Below are positions 16,994-50,020 of a DNA stretch of 64,000 bases, piece after piece. The notes under the pieces are model-generated. The model saw only the letters and a list, made by a program, of their open reading frames with translations, searched no databases and was not told where the DNA came from. Position numbers and translations under genes: made by a program. Position 1 is the first letter of the stretch. Every line of letters begins with the position of its first letter. The DNA comes from Fervidibacillus halotolerans (GTDB lineage Bacteria; Bacillota; Bacilli; Bacillales; Caldibacillaceae), in the NCBI RefSeq assembly GCF_026547205.1, contig NZ_CP106877.1, positions 2,320,771 through 2,384,770 of the forward strand, written 5' to 3'.

Positions 16994-19900
16994 TTATATT
17001 TTTCTTCTGCGGTAGAAAGATTGAATAGAAAATGCTACAAGTAGAAGTAGCGTTCCTACCAACAGAGAATTATAATAACTTGTTGAAGTATTTGGTAATT
17101 GATTTTTCGTTGTTGCATCCCTAGGTGTTTTCGCATTGTCAGACGATTTGTCACCTTGATTCTCATTACTTGTTCCACTGGTTGGGTTTTCTCCATTTGA
17201 ATTTGTTGGCTTTTCAGATGAATCTTCACCAGTTTGATCCTCGTCATCCGAAGGCGTTGATTGATTATCATCTGGATTGTTAGTTTCTTCTGACGGTTGG
17301 TCTCCACTATTGTCTTGATCATCTGGCGTTGTCGATTCTTCACCATCAGGGTTTGTAGGATTGCTTGGTTCTTCACTATTCTTTTCCGCACTCATTTTAA
17401 TAACTACAGTTGTGAGCGGGTCAATTGTAATACGATCTTTCGTCAAAATAACACCTGTTAGTTCAGAAACTTCTTCAGTGCCCGCCTCATCATCATCTAC
17501 CAAAATGATTCCATTGGTTAAATCTTCACTTAAAGTTAGCGTACGTTGTTGATCATCTGCATTCACGAATACGTAATATGCATCTCCATTCGTCGCTTCG
17601 TTTCGATATCCGATAATTAAATCCTCATTTTGAATCTCTGGTGCATTGATTAACGAAACGTTCTGATCAACAAGATCTTTTTCCCCTAATCGGAAAGCAT
17701 CGGTTGATTTTCTTAATTGAATCAACCCCGCCGTATATTCAGCTGTCGTTGTGTGTAACGGATATGTTGTTTGATCCGTAATCTTTGCCCATTCGATGGC
17801 ATTAATCGCATCGGAAGAATCGTAAGAATCATGAATAAAATACGGATAAACAAATGGATTCCCGTTTTCATCTGTCATATATGTAGACTTATATGGAGGA
17901 GTATCCGTATTCACTCGATATTGTTTTGTACGACCATACTCTTGCCCAGCATGGAGAAATGCTGTTCCTTGAGAAGTTAAAATTAATGAGTTCCCAAGAC
18001 GAATCCGTTTTTGAATTTCTTCTTCATAATACTCGGGATCTTTTTTAATCGATTGGGCAATGACATCATGTAACGTTAAATTATCATGTGCAGCAATATA
18101 TTGGATCACATCCCCCGGATCATCCGCTACGAAATTCCCTGGTTGAGCTTTTATATTGTTAAAAATCACTTGAATATTTCTTGCCCCACCTGTAATAAAT
18201 CGGGGTTGTCCCTCACTTCCATAACCGGATTTCAGTTCGTTTCGAATTTCATCGGAAAAAACTGCGACACTGTCCGTAGACTGCATCCATGTCTGATCAG
18301 CCGGTTGATGAGGTTCATTATCATCTCCCGTATACGTGAGCCAACCTTCACCGAGCATAAGAATATTTGGATTCAATTTTTTTGCTTCATCATAGGCAAG
18401 TTGAATCGTCTCCGCATCATGGTCGCCCATCATATCAAATCGAAAACCATCCACTTTAAATTCATCAACCCAATAGGTGATTGAGTCAACTAACAATTTT
18501 CTCGTCATTTTATGGGTCGTTCCTAATCGTCCTCCACCAAAACTTTCTTTCGGGTTGCCATTTACATCCATAAAATGGTAGTAGTTCGGCACTAAGTTTT
18601 CAAACAATTCCATTTTTGCCGTATGGTTATATACGACGTCTAAAATAACTCCCATTCCTCGTTTATGAATCTCATCGATTAACGTTTTAAATTCTTCAAT
18701 TCGAAGTTCTGGGTTATCCGGATTTTCCGAATACATGCCGCTTAATGAAAAATAACTTTGTGGGTCATATCCCCAGTTGTAATTGTTGTTTTGAGATGAG
18801 TATTCCGATTCCCGTTCATGATTTTTCCACTCATCCGCATAGTAATAACTCATAACCGGTAGAAGCTGAATATGGGTGACACCTAATGATTGGAGATAAT
18901 CCAATTTTTCAATAAAAGAAGAAAATGTTCCGAATTGGGCATTCAACTCGTCTTCAATACTTGGGTCCGATGTAAAGTCACGAACATGTACTTCATAAAT
19001 GATCGCATCTTCCCTTTTTTCATACCCATTAATATTGGCAAAATTTAATTCAGGTCCAATTGCCGATGGATCCACAATCGCAGCTTTTGCAAAAGGATCT
19101 GTCCCACCGGATTCGGGGTTTTTCCATCTAGCTAATGATTTCGCATATGGATCGAGGGCTATTTTCGTTTCACCGTTATGGGTAATTTTGTAATGGTAAT
19201 AATACCCTTTCAAATTTTCCAAACCGGTGTTGTCTTTGTTTAACGTAACTTCCCATACACCTCGGTCACCAAGTGTCATTGGAATATCATCCATGACGAC
19301 ATTGTTTTGGTCATCTTTGTCATATAAAATAATGGAAACTTGTTCCGCTTTGGGCGACCATAATTTAATGGTAGCGCTCCCATCTTTGTTTAAGGTTGGT
19401 CCAAGTTCACCGTCATAGGCGTATAATTCATCGATTAATTTCCAGCTACCTGATGCATGAATGATATAGTCGCCAAATGCAATCGTATACGGTTGACCTT
19501 CTAATGGAAATTGACCAATCAATTGCACCTTTTGTTCGTCTAAAATAACCGCATCCTCTACATTCATTTGATCGCCTGCATTATTTTTAACAACGATCGT
19601 TTCTAATAGACTTTCTTTTGTCAAATCCTCTGTTTTCGAAAATAATAACTGGATTTTATTTTCCGATAAAAGTTCACCGGATATTAATTCGGTTGGAATT
19701 GTTCCGTATGGGTTTGTATACACGTGTTCATCTCCATCGTTTATAAAAATTTGGTCCGTATTTGGAATTGGAAGTGTCTGTTTGTAATCTTGTGTTTGCT
19801 CTGATGTTGCCTTGTTTACAAATAAAAATCCAATTTCATTTCCATCTTCTTTAATCTTAATATCGAAATAGGCACCATGCTTTCCTACTCCATCCGCATC

Positions 19901-20500
19901 AAAGGCACCATTTGGCCAACCGTCGACCGATTCTGATGGTGTTTCTACATCACCCCATGTCCATATCCCCCAGTTGTCATATTCGTTATTTCCTCTTTGA
20001 TAATGAATTCGAATGGTATTTTCAGGGAGTTCAACCGGTTCGACAATAAATACATCGTCTGATCCTTCTTTAATCCAAACTTCATTAATCCCGGGATGGA
20101 AAAGATCTAAACTTTTATCTCCCCCATCTTTGTCACCAGTAATCACATTTAGTACGAGAAATCCAATATTTTTTGCATTATATTTGATTGGAATATCGAG
20201 ATACACACCGTAGTCGTCCTGTTGATCAATAATAAACGGAGTACCCCCACTTGGCCAATTTTGTGAAGGCATTTCCACATCGCCCCACAACCATAGACCA
20301 AGATTTTCATAGTTTCCATCTGTACGTTGATAGTGAATTCGTAATGTATTTTCTGGAATGTCTGTGACCTGATCGGAATTTAATGATAATGTTTCGGCTA
20401 AATTACTAGAAGCATAAGTAAGATTGCTAGTCGAAAAAATAAGTAAAAAGGTTGTTAAAAAAACGATAAATTTCTTAATACGTCCTTTCAAAATTTTCAC
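16994..20500 (-). CDS. pulA: LPXTG-anchored type I pullulanase
   Basis: A 1168-residue secreted enzyme that hydrolyses alpha-1,6 bonds in pullulan and branched glucans. It has a signal peptide (about 1-31, ending TSNLTYAS) and two CBM41-type starch-binding modules (about 50-150 and 165-262, both starting with the IHYQR pattern). A CBM48-like module lies around 365-460, followed by a GH13 barrel. Barrel signatures are YNWGYDP near 573 (diagnostic for type I pullulanases), VILDVVYNHT, GFRFDMMGDHD with the nucleophile Asp near 690, LMLGEGW with the acid/base Glu near 719 and IAAHDN near 806. A Ser/Asp/Pro-rich spacer leads to LPNTS near 1134, a membrane segment and YRRRKI, so the protein is wall-anchored by sortase. 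Three LacI-type operator-like palindromes lie upstream. Confidence 0.95.
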   Translation of the reverse strand: MKILKGRIKKFIVFLTTFLLIFSTSNLTYASSNLAETLSLNSDQVTDIPENTLRIHYQRTDGNYENLGLWLWGDVEMPSQNWPSGGTPFIIDQQDDYGVYLDIPIKYNAKNIGFLVLNVITGDKDGGDKSLDLFHPGINEVWIKEGSDDVFIVEPVELPENTIRIHYQRGNNEYDNWGIWTWGDVETPSESVDGWPNGAFDADGVGKHGAYFDIKIKEDGNEIGFLFVNKATSEQTQDYKQTLPIPNTDQIFINDGDEHVYTNPYGTIPTELISGELLSENKIQLLFSKTEDLTKESLLETIVVKNNAGDQMNVEDAVILDEQKVQLIGQFPLEGQPYTIAFGDYIIHASGSWKLIDELYAYDGELGPTLNKDGSATIKLWSPKAEQVSIILYDKDDQNNVVMDDIPMTLGDRGVWEVTLNKDNTGLENLKGYYYHYKITHNGETKIALDPYAKSLARWKNPESGGTDPFAKAAIVDPSAIGPELNFANINGYEKREDAIIYEVHVRDFTSDPSIEDELNAQFGTFSSFIEKLDYLQSLGVTHIQLLPVMSYYYADEWKNHERESEYSSQNNNYNWGYDPQSYFSLSGMYSENPDNPELRIEEFKTLIDEIHKRGMGVILDVVYNHTAKMELFENLVPNYYHFMDVNGNPKESFGGGRLGTTHKMTRKLLVDSITYWVDEFKVDGFRFDMMGDHDAETIQLAYDEAKKLNPNILMLGEGWLTYTGDDNEPHQPADQTWMQSTDSVAVFSDEIRNELKSGYGSEGQPRFITGGARNIQVIFNNIKAQPGNFVADDPGDVIQYIAAHDNLTLHDVIAQSIKKDPEYYEEEIQKRIRLGNSLILTSQGTAFLHAGQEYGRTKQYRVNTDTPPYKSTYMTDENGNPFVYPYFIHDSYDSSDAINAIEWAKITDQTTYPLHTTTAEYTAGLIQLRKSTDAFRLGEKDLVDQNVSLINAPEIQNEDLIIGYRNEATNGDAYYVFVNADDQQRTLTLSEDLTNGIILVDDDEAGTEEVSELTGVILTKDRITIDPLTTVVIKMSAEKNSEEPSNPTNPDGEESTTPDDQDNSGDQPSEETNNPDDNQSTPSDDEDQTGEDSSEKPTNSNGENPTSGTSNENQGDKSSDNAKTPRDATTKNQLPNTSTSYYNSLLVGTLLLLVAFSIQSFYRRRKI

Positions 20501-20965: not shown

Positions 20966-21002
20966 CCTTCGAACTGAAGTAACCGGATGGGGCAAATTTC
21001 CT

Positions 21003-21486
21003 GAATTATAGGCATGTTTATCTGAATTACATGCGGGTTCACCTGAATTCCTGAGTAATTTCCCCGAATTCAGCACAATTTTCCCTGAATTATAAGCACG
21101 TTTACTTGAATTACGTGTCAGTTTCCCCGAATTCCTGACCAAATTCCCCAATTGGACCAAAAGAACCGGAACCTTGACCCCAATTTCCCCTGAATTATAG
21201 GTACATTTACCTGAATTACATGTCAGTTTACTCGAATTCCTGACCAAATTCCCCAAATTCGGCACATTTTTCCCTGAATTATGGGCATGTTTGCCTGAAT
21301 TACGTGCCAATTTACCCGAATTCTGTCTAACTTTCCCTGAATTATGTAACAAAACCACCCGAAATCGATCCAACTTCCCCCAAAGTGGGCCAAGGGAACC
21401 GGAACCTTGACCCGCTCTAACAAAACCACCCGAAATCGATCCAACTTCCCCCAAAGTGGGCCAAAAGAACCGGAACCCCGACCCAC
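21003..21486. repeat. 21-bp tandem array 1 with nested REP-like units
   Basis: Fourteen units of exactly 21 bases, each beginning GAATT (one AAATT) and ending TTTCCCCT-, TTTACCC- or TTACCT-like, with a variable middle. Middles recur in order (ATARGCAYG, ACRTGYSRG, CCTGASYAA, CAGCACAAT), giving an 84-bp higher-order unit. A REP-like unit interrupts the array at 21147-21180 and is flanked by CCCCAATT on both sides. The array ends with a 22-base unit and GAAATCGATCCAACTTCCCC (to 21381), followed by two REP-like units that bracket a second copy of that tail, ending at 21486. Either strand is open in some frames because 21 is a multiple of three; I do not regard these frames as genes. Confidence 0.9.
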
Positions 21487-21598
21487 TTCTCGTTTACAAA
21501 TATGAAGAAATTTTAAATTTTTTGTTAAGCGAATAATATAATTTTATAAAAATTCTATATTTATTATATTCCTTTCTGGAAATTCATGATAAAATAAT

Positions 21599-21721
21599 TC
21601 GGGGATAGCAACTAGGCGATACATCATTTCCTTGGTTTGGGGGTGGTTTATGCGGTTCAGGCCAGAATGAGAACTAGCTGATCATTTGTCAACCAGTCGC
21701 GGGATTATCACACCATTTTTC
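21599..21721 (+). other. GC-richer leader before the nuclease/nucleotidase gene, possibly structured
   Basis: After an AT-rich stretch (21505-21595) suitable for a promoter, about 120 bases with more G and C precede the start codon (from GGGGATAGCAACTAGGCG to the AGGAGG site). Short complementary segments exist, such as GGTTGAC/GTCAACC-like and ACTGG/CCAGT-like pairs, but I could not match it to a known riboswitch class. Confidence 0.3.
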
Positions 21722-21731
21722 AGGAGGAGAA

Positions 21732-24700
21732 ATGATGAGATTCATAAAACATCGCGGTTTAATTTTAGCAGCTATTTTTGCATTACTACTAAACTACATT
21801 ATCCCTTTCCAAAACATTTCACATGCATCAGATATAGATGCGATTTCCGTAGAAGAAGCGATTGCTAACAATAGCGGAACAGGTACTGTAACCGGTTATA
21901 TTATTGGAACGGTTAAAAGCTGGGCTAATTTTGAAACGGAAGAACCTTTCTCAGTCGAAACAAACTTAGCCCTAGCCGATGATCCGAATGAAACGGATCC
22001 TGATAAAATTTTACCCGTGCAACTACCAAAGGGAGATATTCGAAATGATTTTAACCTAGTCGATCACCCAGAATATCTCGGTAAAAAAGTATTTATTACA
22101 GGAACATTGACAGCATACTTTGGCGTACCGGGATTAAAATCTCCCTCCGAAATGTGGTTAGATGGGGAAGAACCTCCTGGTGATGTTGAAGATCCTATTC
22201 CAACTCCTATACCAAGTCCAAGCATAAGTGAAATTCAAGGCGATGGTCATACATCCCCTTACAAAAATCAACAAGTTAAGGACGTTGAAGGAGTTGTCAC
22301 TTTCGTCCAAGATGATAAAAATTTCTTTATCCAATCAGTCGTTCCTGATGACAATCCGAACACATCTGAAGGAATTCTAGTTTATTCTGGGCGCGGACAT
22401 TCTGTAGAAGTTGGCGACTTAGTTAAAGTTAGTGGAACCGTCAAAGAATGGGTCATCATTGGTAGTAAAAAAGATGTCGATCTACCGGTTACAGAAATTA
22501 ATGCATCAAATATTACGGTTGAAAAATCTGATCAACCGTTGCCAGAACCGGTAGTTTTAGATCCACCAACGGACGTAATCGATAATGACGCTTTTGCCAT
22601 ATTTGACCCAGAGGAAGATGCGATTGATTATTATGAATCATTAGAAGGTATGCTTGTTTCTGTGGAAGATCCTGTTGTAGTCGGGCCACAAAAATATGGT
22701 GAAATTCCTGTTTTAGCAAAAATAGATGAAGAGAAAGCGTTTACGAATGTAGGTGGAATATTATTAACGGAAGAAACAGCTAATCCTGAAAGAATATTTA
22801 TTGATATTTCCAATAACGCTTTTATAGCAAAAACTGGTGATCAATTCGATGGTATGGTAACTGGTGTTTTATCCTTCGATTTTAGCAATTTTAAAATACT
22901 TACAGACGAAGAAGATTTACCCGAACTTATTGAAAGAGAATATACCCTTCCCGTTACCACATTAAAGGGTGATGAAGATTCTTTAACAATTGCTTCTTAT
23001 AATATTGAAAACTATTATAAAGGTTTGGATAAAAAAACGACGAAAATTGCCAATTCGATTGTCAATCATTTAAACTCACCCGATATTATTGGTTTAGTCG
23101 AAATGCAAGATAATGACGGACCTGCGGATTCAGGTACGACGGAAGCAGATGAAAACTATGAAGCACTCATTTCAGCCATTGAAGCTGCCGGCGGACCGAC
23201 ATACGATTGGGCTGATATTGCTCCAGAGGACAAAATGGACGGTGGCAAACCTGGTGGAAATATTCGGGTAGGATTTTTATATAATCCCGATCGTGTACAA
23301 CTTGTTGATGGAAAACGAGGTACAGCAACAGAGGCCGTTGATTTTGTCAATGGTTCATTAACATTGAACCCAGGAAGAATCGATCCGACCAACCCTGCTT
23401 TTGATGACAGCCGAAAACCGATTGCTGCACAATTTACCTTTAACGATGAAGACATTATCATCATCAATAGCCACTTTAATTCAAAAGGTGGAGACGATCC
23501 GCTATTCGGTATTAATCAACCACCTACATTGAAAAGTGAAATTCAACGGATGCAAATCGCCGAAGTAGTTAATGGATTCGTCGATGACATTCTTGAAGAA
23601 GATCCGAATGCAAATGTGGTTGTTATGGGAGACTTGAATGATTTTCAATTCTCCAACCCGGTAAAAGCTTTACAAGATGATATTTTAGTCAATTTAGTAA
23701 ATAAAGTCCCTCTTAAAAAACGATATACGTATATTTACGAAGGGAATTCCCAAGTTTTGGATCATATTTTAGTCACCCATAACTTGGCAGACGATGCGGA
23801 AGTTGACATTGTTCATTTGAACTCCGCATATATGGAAGCTCATGGACGAGCATCCGATCACGATCCAATTTTGGCCCAATTGAATTTTGATGAAGAAGAT
23901 CCCATTTTACCAGAAGAAGATTTTGATTTGACGATTATGCATACGAACGATACCCACGCCCATGTGGAGCAATTCCCATTTTTATCTACTGCTGTTCAAG
24001 AAATTAGAGCAGAAAACCCGAATAATTTATTGCTACATGCAGGGGATGTTTTTTCGGGAACCCTTTACTATACCGTTTATGAAGGATTGGCTGATCTTGA
24101 ATTTATGAACACAATTGGGTTTGACGCTATGGTATTCGGAAACCATGAATTTGACAGCGGTTCGGAAGTTCTCGGTAACTTTGTAAAAGATGCAGCATTC
24201 CCGTTTGTTAGTTCAAACATCGATTTCTCTAGTGACTCGAATTTAAGTCCATACGTACAAGCGAATATCGGACTACCAGGTGAAGGTGGAAAAATTTACC
24301 CGGCAGTTGTAAAACATGTTGATGGAGAGCCAATCGGTATTATTGGGTTAACGACAGAAGAAACTCCTTCGATATCCAGTCCTGGTGAATCAATCGTCTT
24401 CCATGATGTTATTGAAAAGGCAAGCGAAACTGTAGAACAACTAGAAGATATGGGAATTGACAAAATTATTGCCTTAACTCATTTAGGTTATAAGAGCGAT
24501 TTAGAATTGGCAAAATCCGTTGAAGGAATTGATATTATCGTCGGCGGACATAGCCATACGGATCTTCCTGAAGGTGTCTTAGTTGATGAAAAAGCTGAGC
24601 CTACAATCATCGTTCAAGCAGGCGACAACTTAAATTATTTAGGGAAACTGGATGTCACTTTTGATGAAAATGGGGTTATCATCAATCACGATGCAGAATT

Positions 24701-25712
24701 ACTCAATTTGGAAGAATATGAAAAAGATACTGCACTTCAAGAAAAGGTTGACGAGTATACTGCAGGATTAGAGGAATTACTCAAAGAAGTTGTTGGAGAA
24801 ACAAAGGTTGCTTTAGACGGTGAAAGAGAAGACGTACGATCAAAGGAAACGAATCTTGGAAACTTAATTACAGACGCCATGGTATGGAAAATGCAACAAT
24901 TCAAACCAGAGGTAACTATAGCATTGCAAAATGGCGGAGGAATTCGAGCATCCATCGACGCTGGAGAAATAACGATGGGTGAAGTCCGTACTGTCATGCC
25001 ATTTAATAACACCCTCGTGTTTATGGAATTAACCGGTGAAGAAATTTGGCAAGCGTTAGAACATAGCGTAAGCAAATATCCTGAAACAAACGGAGGATTT
25101 TTACATGTATCTGGTTTGAAGTTTACCTTTGATCCGGAAAAACCAGTTGGCGAACGAGTGATCTCCGTCTATGTTAAAAATAGAGAAAACGTTTCAAATG
25201 CCAGCGTGTCAATAAGTTCCTTATCGATTGCACAAAGTAATGATCAAGAATATGTTCCAATCGACAAAAACGCCACGTATTTTGTAGCCACGAACTCCTT
25301 TATTGCAAAAGGTGGGGACGGTTACGAAATGCTGGCAAAAGCAACCGAAGAAGGTCGAATGACAAATATTGACATTCCTGACTACGAAGTTTTAAGCGAA
25401 TACTTGCAATACCTTGCTAAAACTGGACAAGATATTCCTACAGTTGAAGGAAGAATCATTGCTCTCGGACAAGAAGATAACGGTCAAGATCCAGGTAAAG
25501 ATGAATCCCCTGGAACGCCAAGTGAGGACCAAGATTCCGGAGATAAGCAGGATTCTAAAGATGGTGAACAAACCTCTGGAGCAGATGATCAAAATAATAA
25601 ACTACCGAATACTGCAACAGAGAATGGAAACTTGCTTGCTATCGGAATGTTACTTATGATGGTAAGCCTCATCCTATTCGTATATTATAGAAACCGGAAG
25701 CAATTCATTTAA
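21732..25712 (+). CDS. LPXTG-anchored multidomain extracellular nuclease and 5'-nucleotidase
   Basis: A 1326-residue wall protein, similar in plan to YhcR-type nucleases. It has a signal peptide (about 1-34) and a DUF6359-like domain (about 37-150) with GTVTGYIIGTVKSW. A Pro-rich linker leads to OB-fold-like segments (about 165-400). An endonuclease/exonuclease/phosphatase domain (about 415-718) follows, with ASYNIENYY, GLVEMQD, INSHFNSKGG, MGDLNDF and SDHDP. Next is a metallophosphatase domain (about 730-1000) with MHTNDTHAH, AGDVFSG, GNHEFDSG and GGHSHTD, and then the 5'-nucleotidase C-terminal domain with NGGGIRAS near 1067. LPNTA near 1290, a membrane helix and YYRNRKQFI end it. It should degrade external DNA to nucleotides and dephosphorylate them for phosphate or nucleoside uptake. 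ATG 21732 follows AGGAGG. Confidence 0.92.
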   Translation: MMRFIKHRGLILAAIFALLLNYIIPFQNISHASDIDAISVEEAIANNSGTGTVTGYIIGTVKSWANFETEEPFSVETNLALADDPNETDPDKILPVQLPKGDIRNDFNLVDHPEYLGKKVFITGTLTAYFGVPGLKSPSEMWLDGEEPPGDVEDPIPTPIPSPSISEIQGDGHTSPYKNQQVKDVEGVVTFVQDDKNFFIQSVVPDDNPNTSEGILVYSGRGHSVEVGDLVKVSGTVKEWVIIGSKKDVDLPVTEINASNITVEKSDQPLPEPVVLDPPTDVIDNDAFAIFDPEEDAIDYYESLEGMLVSVEDPVVVGPQKYGEIPVLAKIDEEKAFTNVGGILLTEETANPERIFIDISNNAFIAKTGDQFDGMVTGVLSFDFSNFKILTDEEDLPELIEREYTLPVTTLKGDEDSLTIASYNIENYYKGLDKKTTKIANSIVNHLNSPDIIGLVEMQDNDGPADSGTTEADENYEALISAIEAAGGPTYDWADIAPEDKMDGGKPGGNIRVGFLYNPDRVQLVDGKRGTATEAVDFVNGSLTLNPGRIDPTNPAFDDSRKPIAAQFTFNDEDIIIINSHFNSKGGDDPLFGINQPPTLKSEIQRMQIAEVVNGFVDDILEEDPNANVVVMGDLNDFQFSNPVKALQDDILVNLVNKVPLKKRYTYIYEGNSQVLDHILVTHNLADDAEVDIVHLNSAYMEAHGRASDHDPILAQLNFDEEDPILPEEDFDLTIMHTNDTHAHVEQFPFLSTAVQEIRAENPNNLLLHAGDVFSGTLYYTVYEGLADLEFMNTIGFDAMVFGNHEFDSGSEVLGNFVKDAAFPFVSSNIDFSSDSNLSPYVQANIGLPGEGGKIYPAVVKHVDGEPIGIIGLTTEETPSISSPGESIVFHDVIEKASETVEQLEDMGIDKIIALTHLGYKSDLELAKSVEGIDIIVGGHSHTDLPEGVLVDEKAEPTIIVQAGDNLNYLGKLDVTFDENGVIINHDAELLNLEEYEKDTALQEKVDEYTAGLEELLKEVVGETKVALDGEREDVRSKETNLGNLITDAMVWKMQQFKPEVTIALQNGGGIRASIDAGEITMGEVRTVMPFNNTLVFMELTGEEIWQALEHSVSKYPETNGGFLHVSGLKFTFDPEKPVGERVISVYVKNRENVSNASVSISSLSIAQSNDQEYVPIDKNATYFVATNSFIAKGGDGYEMLAKATEEGRMTNIDIPDYEVLSEYLQYLAKTGQDIPTVEGRIIALGQEDNGQDPGKDESPGTPSEDQDSGDKQDSKDGEQTSGADDQNNKLPNTATENGNLLAIGMLLMMVSLILFVYYRNRKQFI

Positions 25713-25720
25713 ATTTGAGC

Positions 25721-25747
25721 GCCCAAGGATAACTCCTTGGGCTTTTT
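25721..25747 (+). terminator. Terminator of the nuclease/nucleotidase gene
   Basis: GCCCAAGGA pairs with TCCTTGGGC, followed by TTTTT, nine bases after the stop codon. It resembles the terminator at 758-788. Confidence 0.9.
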
Positions 25748-25750
25748 AAT

Positions 25751-25865
25751 GGGGACAGGAACCTTGAGGGTGGGCCAAAGGAACCGGAGGGTGGGCCAAA
25801 GGAACCGGAACCTTGTCCCACCAAATTTTGGAAGTGGGCTGAAAGAACCGGAACCTCGTCCCAGT
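25751..25865. repeat. REP-like repeat cluster after the nucleotidase gene
   Basis: Units GGGGACAGGAACCTTGAGGG, twice GTGGGCCAAAGGAACCGGA, and a variant with GTCCCAC instead of GACCCAC. It leads into the second 21-bp array. Confidence 0.85.
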
Positions 25866-25872
25866 TTGTCCT

Positions 25873-26282
25873 GAATTATAAGCACGTTTCCCTGAATTAC
25901 GTATGTATTTACCTAAATTCCTGACTAAATTCCCCGAATTCAGCACAATTTTCCCTGAATTGCATGCGAATTTACCCGAATTCCTGAGTAATTTACCCGA
26001 ATTCTGTCTAACTTTCCCTGAATTATGTAACAAAATCACCCGAAATCGATCCAACGTTCCCCGAATTGGACCAAAGGAACCGGAACCTCGTCCCACTCGG
26101 CTTAATTTTCCCTGAATTATGTGCCAGTTTACCCGAATTCATGACCAAATTCCCCGAATTCAACACAATTTTCCCTGAATTACATGTGAATTTACCCGTT
26201 TTCCTGAGTAATTTACCCGAATTCTGTCTAACTTTCCCTGAATTATGTAACAAAATCACCCGAAATCGATCCAACTTCCCCC
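25873..26282. repeat. 21-bp tandem array 2 with nested REP-like unit
   Basis: Two modules. The first has seven GAATT/AAATT-headed 21-base units, then a 22-base unit and GAAATCGATCCAACGTTCCC, then a REP-like insertion of about 50 bases (about 26062-26113). The second has six units (one head mutated to GTTTT), the same 22-base unit and GAAATCGATCCAACTTCCCC. Both modules end in the identical order CTGTCTAAC, ATGTAACAAAATC, GAAATCGATCC before a REP-like unit, as does array 1. Confidence 0.9.
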
Positions 26283-26385
26283 AAATTGGGCCAAAGGAAC
26301 CGGAACCTTGACCCGCTCAAAAGAACCGGAACCCCGACCCACCAGAACAAAACTGGTTCAAAAGTATCCGAACCTCGACCCACTG
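26283..26385. repeat. REP-like units closing array 2
   Basis: Starts AAATTGGGCCAAAGGAACCG and continues with GGTTC-containing variants to CCTCGACCCACTG. It directly precedes the promoter of the truncated LacI gene. Confidence 0.85.
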
Positions 26386-26488: not shown

Positions 26489-26617
26489 ATGGTAACGCTT
26501 AAAGATATTGGCAAAGAAGCAAATGTGAGTGTCATGACCGTATCCAATGTAATCAATAAAATTAGTCATCAACTCAGAATCGAAACAACTGTTAGCGGTA
26601 GGGTTAAAATTATTTAA
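26489..26617 (+). pseudogene. LacI-family regulator, truncated to the DNA-binding N-terminus
   Basis: A 42-codon frame begins MVTLKDIGKEANVSVMTVSN, the first helix-turn-helix of a LacI/GalR regulator, with AAAGGTGAA upstream as the ribosome binding site. After about residue 25-35 the sequence stops resembling the family and runs, in the wrong frame, into the 3' end of a sugar permease gene. The whole ligand-binding domain (about 280 residues) is missing. The original regulator probably controlled a sugar transporter and the GH31 gene that follows. Confidence 0.85.
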
Positions 26618-26750
26618 CGGACAGTATTCAACGGACTACGGCGGATTATTTGCTGCCACTTCCATTTCAATCATTCCAATCATTATCGTTTATATATTCT
26701 TCCAAAAACGATTTATTGAAGGAATTGCAGGCGCTTCCGTAAAAGGATAA
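26601..26750 (+). pseudogene. 3' end of a sugar ABC transporter permease gene (MalG-like), remnant
   Basis: Read from 26601, 49 codons give GLKLFNGQYSTDYGGLFAAT, then a membrane helix and FFQKRFIEGIAGASVKG with a stop at 26748-26750. This is the usual C-terminus of MalG/AraQ-type permeases. No start or upstream part exists; the fragment is fused to the LacI remnant. A REP-like unit starts at the next base after the stop. Confidence 0.85.
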
Positions 26751-26846
26751 TGGGGACAGGAACCCCAAAATGGGGGACTGGAACCTGGTGGGCCAACGGT
26801 GGGCCAAGAGAACCGGAACCTTGACCCACTCGGAATCCCGACCCAC
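26751..26846. repeat. REP-like repeat cluster before the GH31 gene
   Basis: Units GGGGACAGGAACCCCAAAAT, GTGGGCCAAGAGAACCGGA and CCCGACCCACCCC in about 95 bases between the permease remnant and the alpha-glucosidase. Confidence 0.85.
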
Positions 26847-26873: not shown

Positions 26874-29255
26874 ATGAAAATGAGAAAAAAAGAAGATGAC
26901 CCAAAGGCCATGAAGAAGGCAATCATCAAAGGGAAAAATTACCGCTTTACCGTTTTGACAGAGAAATTGATTCGACTGGAGTATTCCGAACATGGAACTT
27001 TCGAAGACCGGGCGACCCAAACGGTCATTAACCGGAAATTTCCGTTGCCAAAGTTCGAAGTGGTTGAGCGACAAGATCAGTTGGAGATTATTACCGACCA
27101 TTTCCATTTGTATTATACGTACGGCCCCTTTTCCAAACACTCCTTATGGATCGATGTGAAAAACAACTACAGTCATTATCGGAACCGGTGGTATTATGGT
27201 GAGCCCTTTGAAACGTTGAAAGGAACGGCCCGAACGTTGGATCAAGTGGACGGGGCGCTACCATTGGAAGAAGGGATCCAATCGAAAAACGGTTTTTCCA
27301 TCATCGATGATTCCAAATCGTGCATTCTGGCCAATGAGGAGACAATTTTGCCGAGGGAGCCGGGACAAGTCGACTTATACTTTTTTGCCCACGGCAGGGA
27401 CTATCTTGCCGGGTTACGGGATTTTTATACATTAACCGGCACAACCCCGCTACTCCCCCGCTTCACCCTCGGAAACTGGTGGAGCCGGTATTGGAAGTAC
27501 GACGAAGAGTCGTATAAAAACTTAATTCGCCGTTTTCAAAAGGAAGACATCCCCTTTTCCGTAAGCGTCATCGACATGGATTGGCATCTTGTCGATATTC
27601 CAGAAAAATATGGAAGCGGATGGACGGGCTATACGTGGAATAAAGAACTGTTCCCAGATCCGGACCGGTTTTTACAGTGGCTTCATAATCAAGGAATGCA
27701 TGTTACGTTAAATGTTCATCCCGCAGACGGGGTCAGACCCCATGAAGAGATGTATGAACGGATGGCAAAGGCGTTAGGGGTCGATGTGGAAAAAGAACAT
27801 CCGATTCCCTTTGATATTACCGACAAAAAATTTCGCGATGCCTATTTCAAATTTTTACATCATCCAGAAGAAAAAAGAGGCGTTGATTTTTGGTGGATTG
27901 ACTGGCAACAAGGGACGACGAGTAAAATCCCTGGTGCCGATCCCCTTTGGCTGTTGAACCATTTCCATAGTTTGGATTTCCAAAAACGAAGAAAACGACC
28001 GCTTATCTTATCCCGCTATGCAGGGGTGGGCAGTCACCGCTTTCCGATCGGTTTTTCCGGAGACACGGTCATTTCATGGGATTCCTACCGATTCCAACCG
28101 TATTTTACCGCAACTGCGTCAAATATCGGCTATACGTGGTGGAGTCATGATATCGGGGGCCATTTTGAAGGGGAAAAGGACGATGAACTAGCACTCCGGT
28201 GGCTTCAATTCGGTGTGTTCAGTCCGATCATGCGTCTTCATAGTTCCAGCAGTCCCTTTAACGGAAAAGAACCGTGGCGATATCCGGAACATATTTCCAA
28301 CATTATGAAAAAGTACTTGCGGTTGCGCCATCAATTCGTCCCGTACTTGTATACGATGAATTGGCGTACTCACCGTAACGAACATCCGCTTATGATGCCT
28401 ATGTACTATTTGTATCCGATGGAAAATGAAGCCTATGAAGTGCCCAACCAATATTTCTTCGGAAGCGAGTTAATCGTCGCACCGGTTACAGAAAAAATCG
28501 ATCGGGACCTGCAACTTGCACCGGTTACCCTTTGGCTACCTGAAGGAAATTGGATCGACTTTTTCACAGGAAGGATGTACAAAGGTGGCGGCAAACTGAA
28601 ATTGTTCCGGGGACTCGAACAAATACCGATTTTCGCAAAAGAGGGGGCGATTGTTCCATTAGCCAAACATCAACCGGGAAAAAATACGATCGAAAACCCG
28701 ACTGAGCTAGAAATTATCGTCTTCCCTGGTAAATCGAATACGTTCTCCTTATACGAGGATGACGGAATGAGCCTTGAATACGAAACGGGCCATTTTGTGG
28801 AAACAAAAATGGAATGGAATTGGGAAGAGAAAACATTTACTATTGATTCTGCAGAAGGGGATCGGTCCGTTATTCCAGAAAAAAGAAATATATGGATTCA
28901 TTTCCGAGGCGTACAGGATTGGAAACATGTGAAGGTACAGGTGGATGGAAAAACGATTCCTGTAAAAGGACAATACGACACAGAAACAAATACGTATACG
29001 TTCATTGTCGAAAACTGGAACGTGAAAACAAAACTGGCGGTGCAAATTGTTGATGAAAACATCATGAAGACGGAACACGATTATAAAGAAGGGATCTTCC
29101 AATTGTTGAATCGGGCACAAATCTCCTTCCCTTTAAAAGATCGGATTTATAAAATCGTGAATGAAACGGACGACAAATGGAAAATCATCCGCCAATTGCG
29201 AACGATGGACTTGAGTGAGATGTTGTTTGATGCGATTTTGGAGGAGTTGGTGTAA
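26874..29255 (+). CDS. GH31 alpha-glucosidase / alpha-xylosidase family protein
   Basis: This 793-residue cytoplasmic enzyme (no signal peptide) hydrolyses terminal alpha-glycosidic bonds. An N-terminal beta-sandwich is followed by a catalytic barrel with RFTLGNWWSRYWKYDEESY near residue 200, DMDWH near 238, the nucleophile Asp in DFWWIDWQQGT near 340, the acid/base Asp in GFSGDTVISWDSY near 396 and WWSHDIGGH near 420. LYEDDG sits in the C-terminal sheet. The start follows GGAGGGATTTGA. A C-terminal extension of about 90 residues (after residue 700) is longer than many family members. GC content looks higher than in neighbours. Substrate preference cannot be read; context with the pullulanase and a lost sugar ABC transporter suggests glucan-derived oligosaccharides. 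With those transporter genes gone, how substrate enters is unclear. Confidence 0.92.
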   Translation: MKMRKKEDDPKAMKKAIIKGKNYRFTVLTEKLIRLEYSEHGTFEDRATQTVINRKFPLPKFEVVERQDQLEIITDHFHLYYTYGPFSKHSLWIDVKNNYSHYRNRWYYGEPFETLKGTARTLDQVDGALPLEEGIQSKNGFSIIDDSKSCILANEETILPREPGQVDLYFFAHGRDYLAGLRDFYTLTGTTPLLPRFTLGNWWSRYWKYDEESYKNLIRRFQKEDIPFSVSVIDMDWHLVDIPEKYGSGWTGYTWNKELFPDPDRFLQWLHNQGMHVTLNVHPADGVRPHEEMYERMAKALGVDVEKEHPIPFDITDKKFRDAYFKFLHHPEEKRGVDFWWIDWQQGTTSKIPGADPLWLLNHFHSLDFQKRRKRPLILSRYAGVGSHRFPIGFSGDTVISWDSYRFQPYFTATASNIGYTWWSHDIGGHFEGEKDDELALRWLQFGVFSPIMRLHSSSSPFNGKEPWRYPEHISNIMKKYLRLRHQFVPYLYTMNWRTHRNEHPLMMPMYYLYPMENEAYEVPNQYFFGSELIVAPVTEKIDRDLQLAPVTLWLPEGNWIDFFTGRMYKGGGKLKLFRGLEQIPIFAKEGAIVPLAKHQPGKNTIENPTELEIIVFPGKSNTFSLYEDDGMSLEYETGHFVETKMEWNWEEKTFTIDSAEGDRSVIPEKRNIWIHFRGVQDWKHVKVQVDGKTIPVKGQYDTETNTYTFIVENWNVKTKLAVQIVDENIMKTEHDYKEGIFQLLNRAQISFPLKDRIYKIVNETDDKWKIIRQLRTMDLSEMLFDAILEELV

Positions 29256-49799: not shown

Positions 49800-50020
49800 C
49801 CCACATGCTAAACATTTTTTGGGCATCTAACCCACCCTCACACCACCCCATCGACAATACATGTCTAAGGCTAGGGGTTGCCCCGCCCACAGGATGGCCG
49901 AGTGCCTCCTTTGATAACGGTGAGGAGACATTACCGTTTTCAATATCGTATCGAAGAATTTTTCCTCTCCAGCTATAGCTTTATCCACAACAGGACGTTA
50001 GTCGGAAAATTTTGAAATCT
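49800..50020. other. GC-rich conserved-looking block in the 628-bp gap between ywqE and galU
   Basis: Within an AT-rich gap (49415-50042), bases 49800-49960 rise sharply in GC and contain GGGGTTGCCCCGCCC and the hairpin-forming AACGGTGAGGAGACATTACC GTT (AACGGT/ACCGTT). On the plus strand one frame is open for about 48 codons and ends at TAG near 49971, without a start codon. It might be the right end of a decayed IS200/IS605-type element or a structured RNA, but I cannot identify it. The rest of the gap, 49415-49790, is AT-rich with no gene seen. Confidence 0.35.

Follow-up and report, generated by a model that had tools for sequence, protein, structure and literature searches.

Intergenic arrays of 21-bp units with a fixed core and a variable centre in Fervidibacillus halotolerans, candidate architectural elements of the chromosome

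What are the two arrays of short direct repeats that lie on either side of a nuclease/5'-nucleotidase gene in Fervidibacillus halotolerans, and what could they do for the chromosome that carries them? The window analysed in the current work is a stretch of 64,000 nucleotides, corresponding to positions 2320771-2384770 of the 2.94-Mb single-contig genome, and coordinates below refer to this window unless genomic positions are indicated. An initial annotation of the window had described about 27 units of exactly 21 bases, each with a constant GAATT head, a CCC tail and a variable centre, and had regarded them as arrayed protein-binding sites. The arrays are confirmed as real. The reading which we favour, without holding it for probable, is that they represent intergenic architectural elements located after terminators, putatively bound or wrapped by a protein on one face of the helix and probably buffering supercoils.

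The core TTTNCCNGAATT has ten fixed letters, and a position was called as a unit if at least eight of them matched. This retrieved 32 core-bearing units, 15 in array 1 (20996-21352, plus strand) and 17 in array 2 (25866-26253, plus strand; this number includes isolated cores at 26056 and, just beyond the given limits, at 26276), so that the earlier count proved slightly too low. The 21-bp pitch itself is borne out, being exact for 13 of the 14 intervals of array 1 and for 13 of the 16 of array 2 (26 of 30 overall), with the other intervals measuring 63, 43, 43 and 51 bp. Across the whole window, pairs of GAATT occur 20 times at a distance of 21 bp, once at 22 bp and never at any other distance from 15 to 29 bp, and a two-unit consensus search gave seven matches versus 0.00 expected from shuffled sequence.

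Array 1 starts with a block of seven 21-bp units with the core TTTNCCNGAATT (20996-21142, plus strand), whose centres come in sets of four, i.e. with an 84-bp order; this cycling, which had been described in the annotation, is also recovered by Tandem Repeats Finder (TRF) as a period of 84 with 80% matches. A second block of eight units (21185-21352, plus strand) is followed by a degenerate continuation (21353-21484, plus strand) interleaved with two copies of a different, dispersed repeat, GAACCGGAACC, as part of a 71-bp duplication. Array 2 is composed of a block of eight 21-bp units (25866-26033), an isolated core (26056-26067) and a block of seven 21-bp units (26107-26253) situated inside a 220-bp duplication (25887-26308), all on the plus strand, and its higher orders are 63 and 220 bp.

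A genome-wide search for periodic GAATT, as proposed in the annotation, revealed that the genome contains six arrays with the same core. A pattern of three GAATT spaced at 21 bp was matched 59 times on the forward strand and 26 times on the reverse strand, with no match for the backward control; many of the reverse matches are due to the fact that GAATTC makes an array readable on both strands, and one of them, at 1.78 Mb, stands alone. When CCC was added to the pattern and up to two mismatches were allowed, the matches grouped into the two arrays of the window and four others, located at genomic positions of about 133.4-133.8 kb (minus strand), 2216.6-2217.3 kb, 2311.0-2312.5 kb and 2405.6-2406.7 kb. 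These four also contain 20-bp units and, by eye, 83- and 165-bp orders. The core of this genome's arrays can be written as TTTNCC(C/T)GAATT. When the 108 distinct 21-bp units of all six arrays are compared, mean between-array identity is 0.90 for the ten core columns, a value biased upward by the location of units through their core, and 0.34 for the nine centre columns. In the three large arrays, of 71, 29 and 60 units, nine gaps are of double length (40 or 41 bp, one unit having been missed in each), and two others measure 125 and 49 bp; considering that missed units are so few, the bias is therefore small. The constant head, the constant tail and the variable centre of the annotation thus stand.

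In the window species the proposed constraint on the core rests on this comparison among its own arrays, while a related genus (g26, 14 species) makes orthologous arrays available. Pairs of CGCGGAWWT at two-turn pitch were found in 13 of its genomes, and the backward control gave no match in any of the 14. The ends of the units differ between genomes, the core containing GGAATT in some species and GGATAT in others: in G103, G070, G027 and G131 the end is CGCGGATAT in 95 of 102 cases, CGCGGAAAT in 7 and CGCGGAATT in none (for G131, 9 of the 19 matches being listed), and among the matches listed for G251 it is CGCGGAATT in 17 of 24, CGCGGAAAT in 5 and CGCGGATAT in 2, the corresponding numbers for G314 being 26 of 44, 12 and 6. 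These are hand counts in which overlapping pairs count units twice, and G335, G181 and G157 were left out. At one orthologous site, the AATT form occurs in seven species and the GGATA(T) form in four (G070, G103, G027 and, in degenerate form, G157), while G131, G355 and G374 retain either a relic or no clear array at this site.

Substitutions at the orthologous arrays were counted in 44 pairwise alignments from seven species, the pairs being overlapping, and amount to 36/1591 (2.3%) in the core, 324/2194 (14.8%) in the centre and 1676/10282 (16.3%) in the flanks, where the core is identified through its match in one member of each pair, a definition that favours it somewhat. In a set of eleven less overlapping pairs (picked by hand and summed), the numbers are 4/399, 57/537 and 362/2559, respectively (Fisher p 2e-10 for core versus centre), and the centre changes slightly more slowly than the flank (p 0.03). 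Purifying selection thus acts on the core of these arrays, while the centre is near neutral in its letters with its length being kept. For this genus, we regard the constraint as the strongest evidence that the arrays have a function. A core that is kept and a centre that is free, both among the arrays of F. halotolerans and at the orthologous arrays, support the logic of arrayed binding sites at a pitch of two helical turns which the annotation had put forward.

How far the arrays extend beyond these genomes depends on the pattern employed. Seven other members of the family were searched for the array pattern without any match, and a strict two-unit pattern matched only this genome among 397 genomes of the order. 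A scan of the contigs of 84,980 species retrieved 23 stretches, nine of which were judged by eye to be true intergenic arrays (L056, L062, L067, L069, L070, L071, L072, L074 and L075), with L059 perhaps being another and the remaining thirteen having the appearance of two-unit chance or coding matches. The nine are on contigs of Robertmurraya siralis (two), Bacillus methanolicus (one), an Acidobacteria metagenome-assembled genome (MAG; two), a Flavobacteriales MAG (three) and Candidatus Methanimicrococcus (one), and their likeness is partly a matter of selection because they were picked with the motif of F. halotolerans. Viral contigs gave 0 matches. A looser three-unit search matched 11 of the 397 genomes, with none for the control, although one of these matches (G269) resembles a coiled-coil gene. 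Coding sequence of coiled-coil heptads (L064, L066 and L079, by eye) can mimic the 21-bp pattern and also score as curved, and is a trap for motif searches.

When the motif AATTCNNNNAAA was required three times with free gaps of 4-34 nt, 22 of the 397 genomes and 15 of 135 genera were matched. The pitch is 19-21 bp or its double in 20 of these 22 genomes (listed matches, by eye), the exceptions being G001 with 43 bp and G058 with 24 bp; the pitch in relatives is thus non-random. Four of the genomes matched by the backward control of this free-gap pattern were read, and all four contain arrays, with a TTAAG core at about 20-21 bp in G268, G308 and G350 and units of 43 bp in G025. Since these backward-control matches are themselves arrays, the class is wider than one core. 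Genomes differ in their core, and what they share is the pitch. Two of these genomes have particular arrangements: the 43-bp tandem arrays of G025 (L139, L143 and L147; C1:190983-310140 and 2593725) have the core TTAAGCGCTTTTGT and a unit length near four helical turns, and in the 21-bp arrays of G268 (L222-L227) unit types beginning with TTAAGTAATTTT and TTAAGTAAATTT tend to alternate, resulting in a 42-bp order.

The position of the arrays relative to genes was determined with a script covering 58 arrays, 54 of which were used (four have no called gene on one side), genes being represented by open reading frames only. The 54 arrays comprise 34 in tandem, 16 in convergent and 4 in divergent intergenic regions, versus 60, 14 and 23 for control intergenic regions of at least 150 bp from the same loci, i.e. 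fewer divergent (Fisher p 0.014) and more convergent (p 0.033) positions. In tandem regions the upstream 3' end is the closer one in 26 of 34 cases (p 0.003; medians of 85 versus 193 bp). These p-values are optimistic because of the restriction to open reading frames and the presence of several arrays per genome. With statistics of moderate strength, most arrays are thus shown to be located where transcription units have their 3' ends.

Fourteen sites of G314 were analysed, thirteen having at least three units by script, of which six are spaced 20, 21, 20 and 20 bp, and the fourteenth (L212) being read by eye. Genes for 5S ribosomal RNA (rRNA) above threshold number 9, 8 and 8 in G314, G294 and G273, of which 8, 5 and 5, respectively, were inspected (18 of 25). 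For five of the 18, tRNA genes follow directly and no array is present within 880 bp. Eleven of the remaining 13 have an array 94-440 bp downstream (five in G314, four in G294 and two in G273). Both exceptions are in G273, where the 5S gene at 2714944 is followed by a single relic unit and that at 2779661 by none. The relic (L245) appears, by eye and relative to the G314 copy, to be an array cut to one unit through an exchange between its first and last units. In G314, one centre is common to the arrays at four rRNA operons.

Curvature was predicted with the De Santis and Bolshoy wedge parameters. In the De Santis model, all eight segments taken from the arrays of F. halotolerans are predicted to be more curved than each of 200 dinucleotide shuffles, and permutation of the 21 unit columns, by which period, conservation and composition are kept, reached the observed curvature in 0 of 1000 cases (1.2% in the Bolshoy model). 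When 33 segments of F. halotolerans and other genomes are taken together, most are predicted to be curved in the De Santis model, in which the median permutation fraction of 33 consensus units is 0.045; coiled-coil coding repeats can reach equal scores. For three own arrays the maximum of the AT signal is at 10.35-10.4 bp, and in several G268 arrays the signal does not exceed that of shuffles. Universal curvature was rejected on the basis of the G268 and Methanimicrococcus arrays, and predicted curvature is a frequent rather than a defining property.

The gene flanked by both arrays of the window (21732-25712, plus strand) encodes a protein with DUF6359, Exo_endo_phos, Metallophos, 5_nucleotid_C and LPXTG anchor domains. 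The annotation had stressed that the arrays bracket this gene; they do lie on both sides of it, but a special link to it is unsupported and was rejected, since the same arrays are found beside unrelated genes elsewhere in this genome and in other genera. The neighbour pairs of the four arrays outside the window are a gamma-glutamyltransferase and a ribosome hibernation factor, a transketolase subunit and a NERD protein, a SpoIIM-like and a VCA0040-like protein, and a DUF1287 protein and a zinc alcohol dehydrogenase. Array 1 also separates the nuclease gene from a divergent gene for a pullulanase-type protein with an LPXTG anchor (16994-20500, minus strand). A hairpin followed by a T run, terminator-like by eye (intrinsic type; 25721-25747, plus strand), lies 3' of the nuclease gene and upstream of array 2, and a glycoside hydrolase family 31 gene (26874-29255, plus strand) is located downstream of array 2. 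Between array 2 and the latter gene is a gene remnant (26489-26753), where the beginning of a LacI-type regulator (PF00356 at 33.6 bits, spanning 23 positions) breaks off and is followed by what appears by eye to be the end of a transporter permease.

Both window arrays are interrupted by the dispersed repeat GAACCGGAACC, which has 22 copies in the window (804-26820) versus 0.01 expected and is present elsewhere in the genome too. It is often tandem, with periods of 38-95 bp, and resembles repetitive extragenic palindromic (REP) elements by eye; two folded pieces gave z scores of 0.35 and -1.28, i.e. no strong signal. Further away, an epsC RNA element is present at 49820-49936 on the minus strand (Rfam RF01735, 114 bits).

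With dnaA at genomic position 2.594 Mb, the leading strand is the AATTCGGG strand in all six own arrays (the five on the same side as dnaA being about 190-380 kb away from it). Among the arrays listed for six other genomes, this is the case in only 7 of 11 (determined by hand, with rounded genome sizes), on account of which replication polarity was rejected as a general rule. No initiator or partition domains were found among eleven scanned proteins neighbouring the own arrays. Noc sites were considered too and rejected: the binding site of Noc is the palindrome ATTTCCCGGGAAAT, for which the window contains five matches (with up to three mismatches) versus 8.83 expected.

The favoured reading, that of a protein-bound topological element, can be set out as follows. 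Each unit combines a short core with a nearly free centre of kept length, so that cores are placed about two helical turns apart on one DNA face. A putative protein that binds or wraps DNA may sit on neighbouring cores of the array, which is usually curved, and together with the array it may then bend or wrap the DNA and act as a topological buffer, by which supercoils coming from neighbouring transcription units would be pinned or removed. The genome-specific core would reflect co-evolution with this protein; the difference in core between species calls for a sequence-specific reader. DNA gyrase is a candidate user of curvature and position: PMC6379681 describes a gyrase motif of Escherichia coli whose GC content is phased and which is enriched downstream of operons with high transcription, and curvature is described as pinning plectonemes in PMC6301789.

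Several observations weigh against this reading. Gyrase does not predict a genome-specific core, its location downstream of operons is stated in a passage of PMC6379681 not to be hard-wired, and the plectoneme sites predicted in the relevant part of PMC6301789 lie upstream of promoters. The free-gap pattern has no match in 375 of the 397 genomes, so that the element is not general (arrays with other cores would be missed), and its backward control matched 10 of the 397. The definition of the core in the substitution counts, mentioned above, is to be added here. Array 1 of the window is one of the four divergent cases. As four rRNA-linked copies of G314 share a centre, they are not independent and may be copies that spread with the operon, and TRF retrieved no array behind the inspected 5S genes of the window species (0 of 5), G011 (0 of 5; 6 in total) or G268 (0 of 5; 7 in total), a TTAAG match being located, by coordinates, about 0.9 kb downstream of one further G268 5S gene. 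With respect to curvature, the Methanimicrococcus array is not curved (z 0.3), the G268 arrays are weakly curved (for one of six, 21 of 200 shuffles are at or above the observed value), nine G314 arrays are unremarkable in the Bolshoy model (z from -1.5 to 1.4), and in that model the median permutation fraction of the consensus units is 0.224.

The rival that survives best, unlikely as we consider it, dispenses with topology: a dimeric protein, of which ribbon-helix-helix or AbrB-like proteins are analogous examples, would bind the cores as a regulator or nucleoid-protein filament and spread on one face, thereby silencing or marking the region. The core constraint, the difference in core between species and the two-turn pitch speak for such a filament, and many cores are, by eye, near inverted repeats (TTCNNGAA), but arrays that are scarce at divergent promoters and adjoin unrelated genes are a poor fit to a regulator.

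That the arrays are selfish or mobile repeats, with a core recognised by a mobilising enzyme in the way that REP elements are recognised by their transposase and with gene 3' ends representing tolerated sites, is an explanation to which we give rather little credence. It would accommodate a dispersed family with a genome-specific core, the centre shared by four rRNA-linked copies in G314, the local duplications that produced the 83-, 84-, 165- and 220-bp orders, and the single relic unit of G273. It does not lead one to expect the low rate of core change at orthologous sites in seven species, which would be surprising for passive insertion, nor a fixed two-turn pitch, nor a predicted curvature beyond that of the column-permutation control.

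Neutral minisatellites generated by slippage and unequal exchange are a quite improbable source of the arrays; local higher-order repeats and the apparent loss of units are in keeping with such an origin, whereas the uniform divergence it entails is not observed (identities of 0.90 and 0.34 for core and centre in own arrays, and substitution rates of 2.3% and 14.8% in the related genus), and the same core is found at unlinked sites with unrelated centres. Finally, a coding heptad repeat, a structured RNA or a CRISPR-like (clustered regularly interspaced short palindromic repeats) RNA array can hardly be entertained: 21 bp do equal seven codons and three pattern matches elsewhere look like coiled coils by eye, but 20-, 21- and 22-bp units and 83- and 165-bp orders in the other own arrays break the frame, as do the 43-bp gaps between the mostly 21-bp steps of the window, while four folds of window array pieces gave z scores of -1.05, -0.52, -2.02 and +0.55 (for the piece with -2.02, 6 of 200 shuffles were as good) and Rfam gave no match above threshold at the window arrays.

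Among described systems, the nearest are REP elements and bacterial interspersed mosaic elements (BIME), phased A-tracts and the gyrase motif. REP and BIME elements are located 3' of genes, and the arrays resemble them in being intergenic and near gene 3' ends, window array 1 being an exception. In parts of PMC3733652 BIME/REP of enterobacteria are presented as repeats dispersed between genes for which a role in supercoiling is hypothesised, REPs as palindromes of 20-40 bp and CRISPR repeats as being 24-48 bp long, and part of PMC6379681 reports that gyrase cleavage sites were tested for over-representation in BIME-2. Whereas a REP is a palindrome that forms a stem-loop, the units of the arrays are repeated directly every two turns and are free in their centre, and their folds are not clearly above those of shuffles in three of four cases. 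Neither are they CRISPR, as the annotation had recognised, the repeats being too short: a degenerate core of 12 bp is accompanied by centres of 9 nt which recur instead of being unique spacers. The E. coli gyrase motif, as described in part of PMC6379681, covers 130 bp, has a period of 10.75, is degenerate and is enriched downstream of rRNA operons; helically phased AT/GC variation may be a trait that it shares with some of the arrays, which differ in having a fixed core and, in three own arrays, the AT peak at 10.35-10.4 bp. A-tract phasing occurs in many prokaryotes according to part of PMC3940949, and the arrays are similar to phased A-tracts by their predicted curvature above composition-matched shuffles and, in own arrays, an AT period near 10.4, but differ by core letters that are fixed within a genome, by tandem units and by not always being curved. 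Plasmid iterons and centromere repeats are direct repeats near 20-22 bp which are bound cooperatively, and it is in this unit length that the arrays are like them, whereas the arrays are chromosomal, occur at several loci and reach up to 71 units.

The initial annotation is thus partly supported. The results that it had named as speaking against it were not encountered, the pitch in relatives being non-random and conservation being present, but it is incomplete with regard to dispersal in the genome, the cores specific to each genome in relatives, the bias towards gene 3' ends and predicted curvature. No description of such arrays was found in open-licence literature as represented by titles and the beginnings of abstracts, which is not proof of absence, and there is a real chance that the arrays are a class of their own. 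More doubtful is the further proposition that two-turn-pitch arrays after transcription units form an element class whose dedicated reader shifts in specificity from lineage to lineage and drags the array core of the genome along; if true, such a reader-array pair would be a bacterial parallel to fast-evolving pairs of satellites and their binding proteins. Transcription drives twist downstream, which bacteria have to absorb, and if the favoured reading holds, the arrays would provide a hard-wired device at that location, readable from sequence, unlike the placement of gyrase in E. coli as stated in part of PMC6379681. The core can be mutated, the protein may be fished with it, and the difference in core between sister species would constitute a natural experiment for finding this protein.

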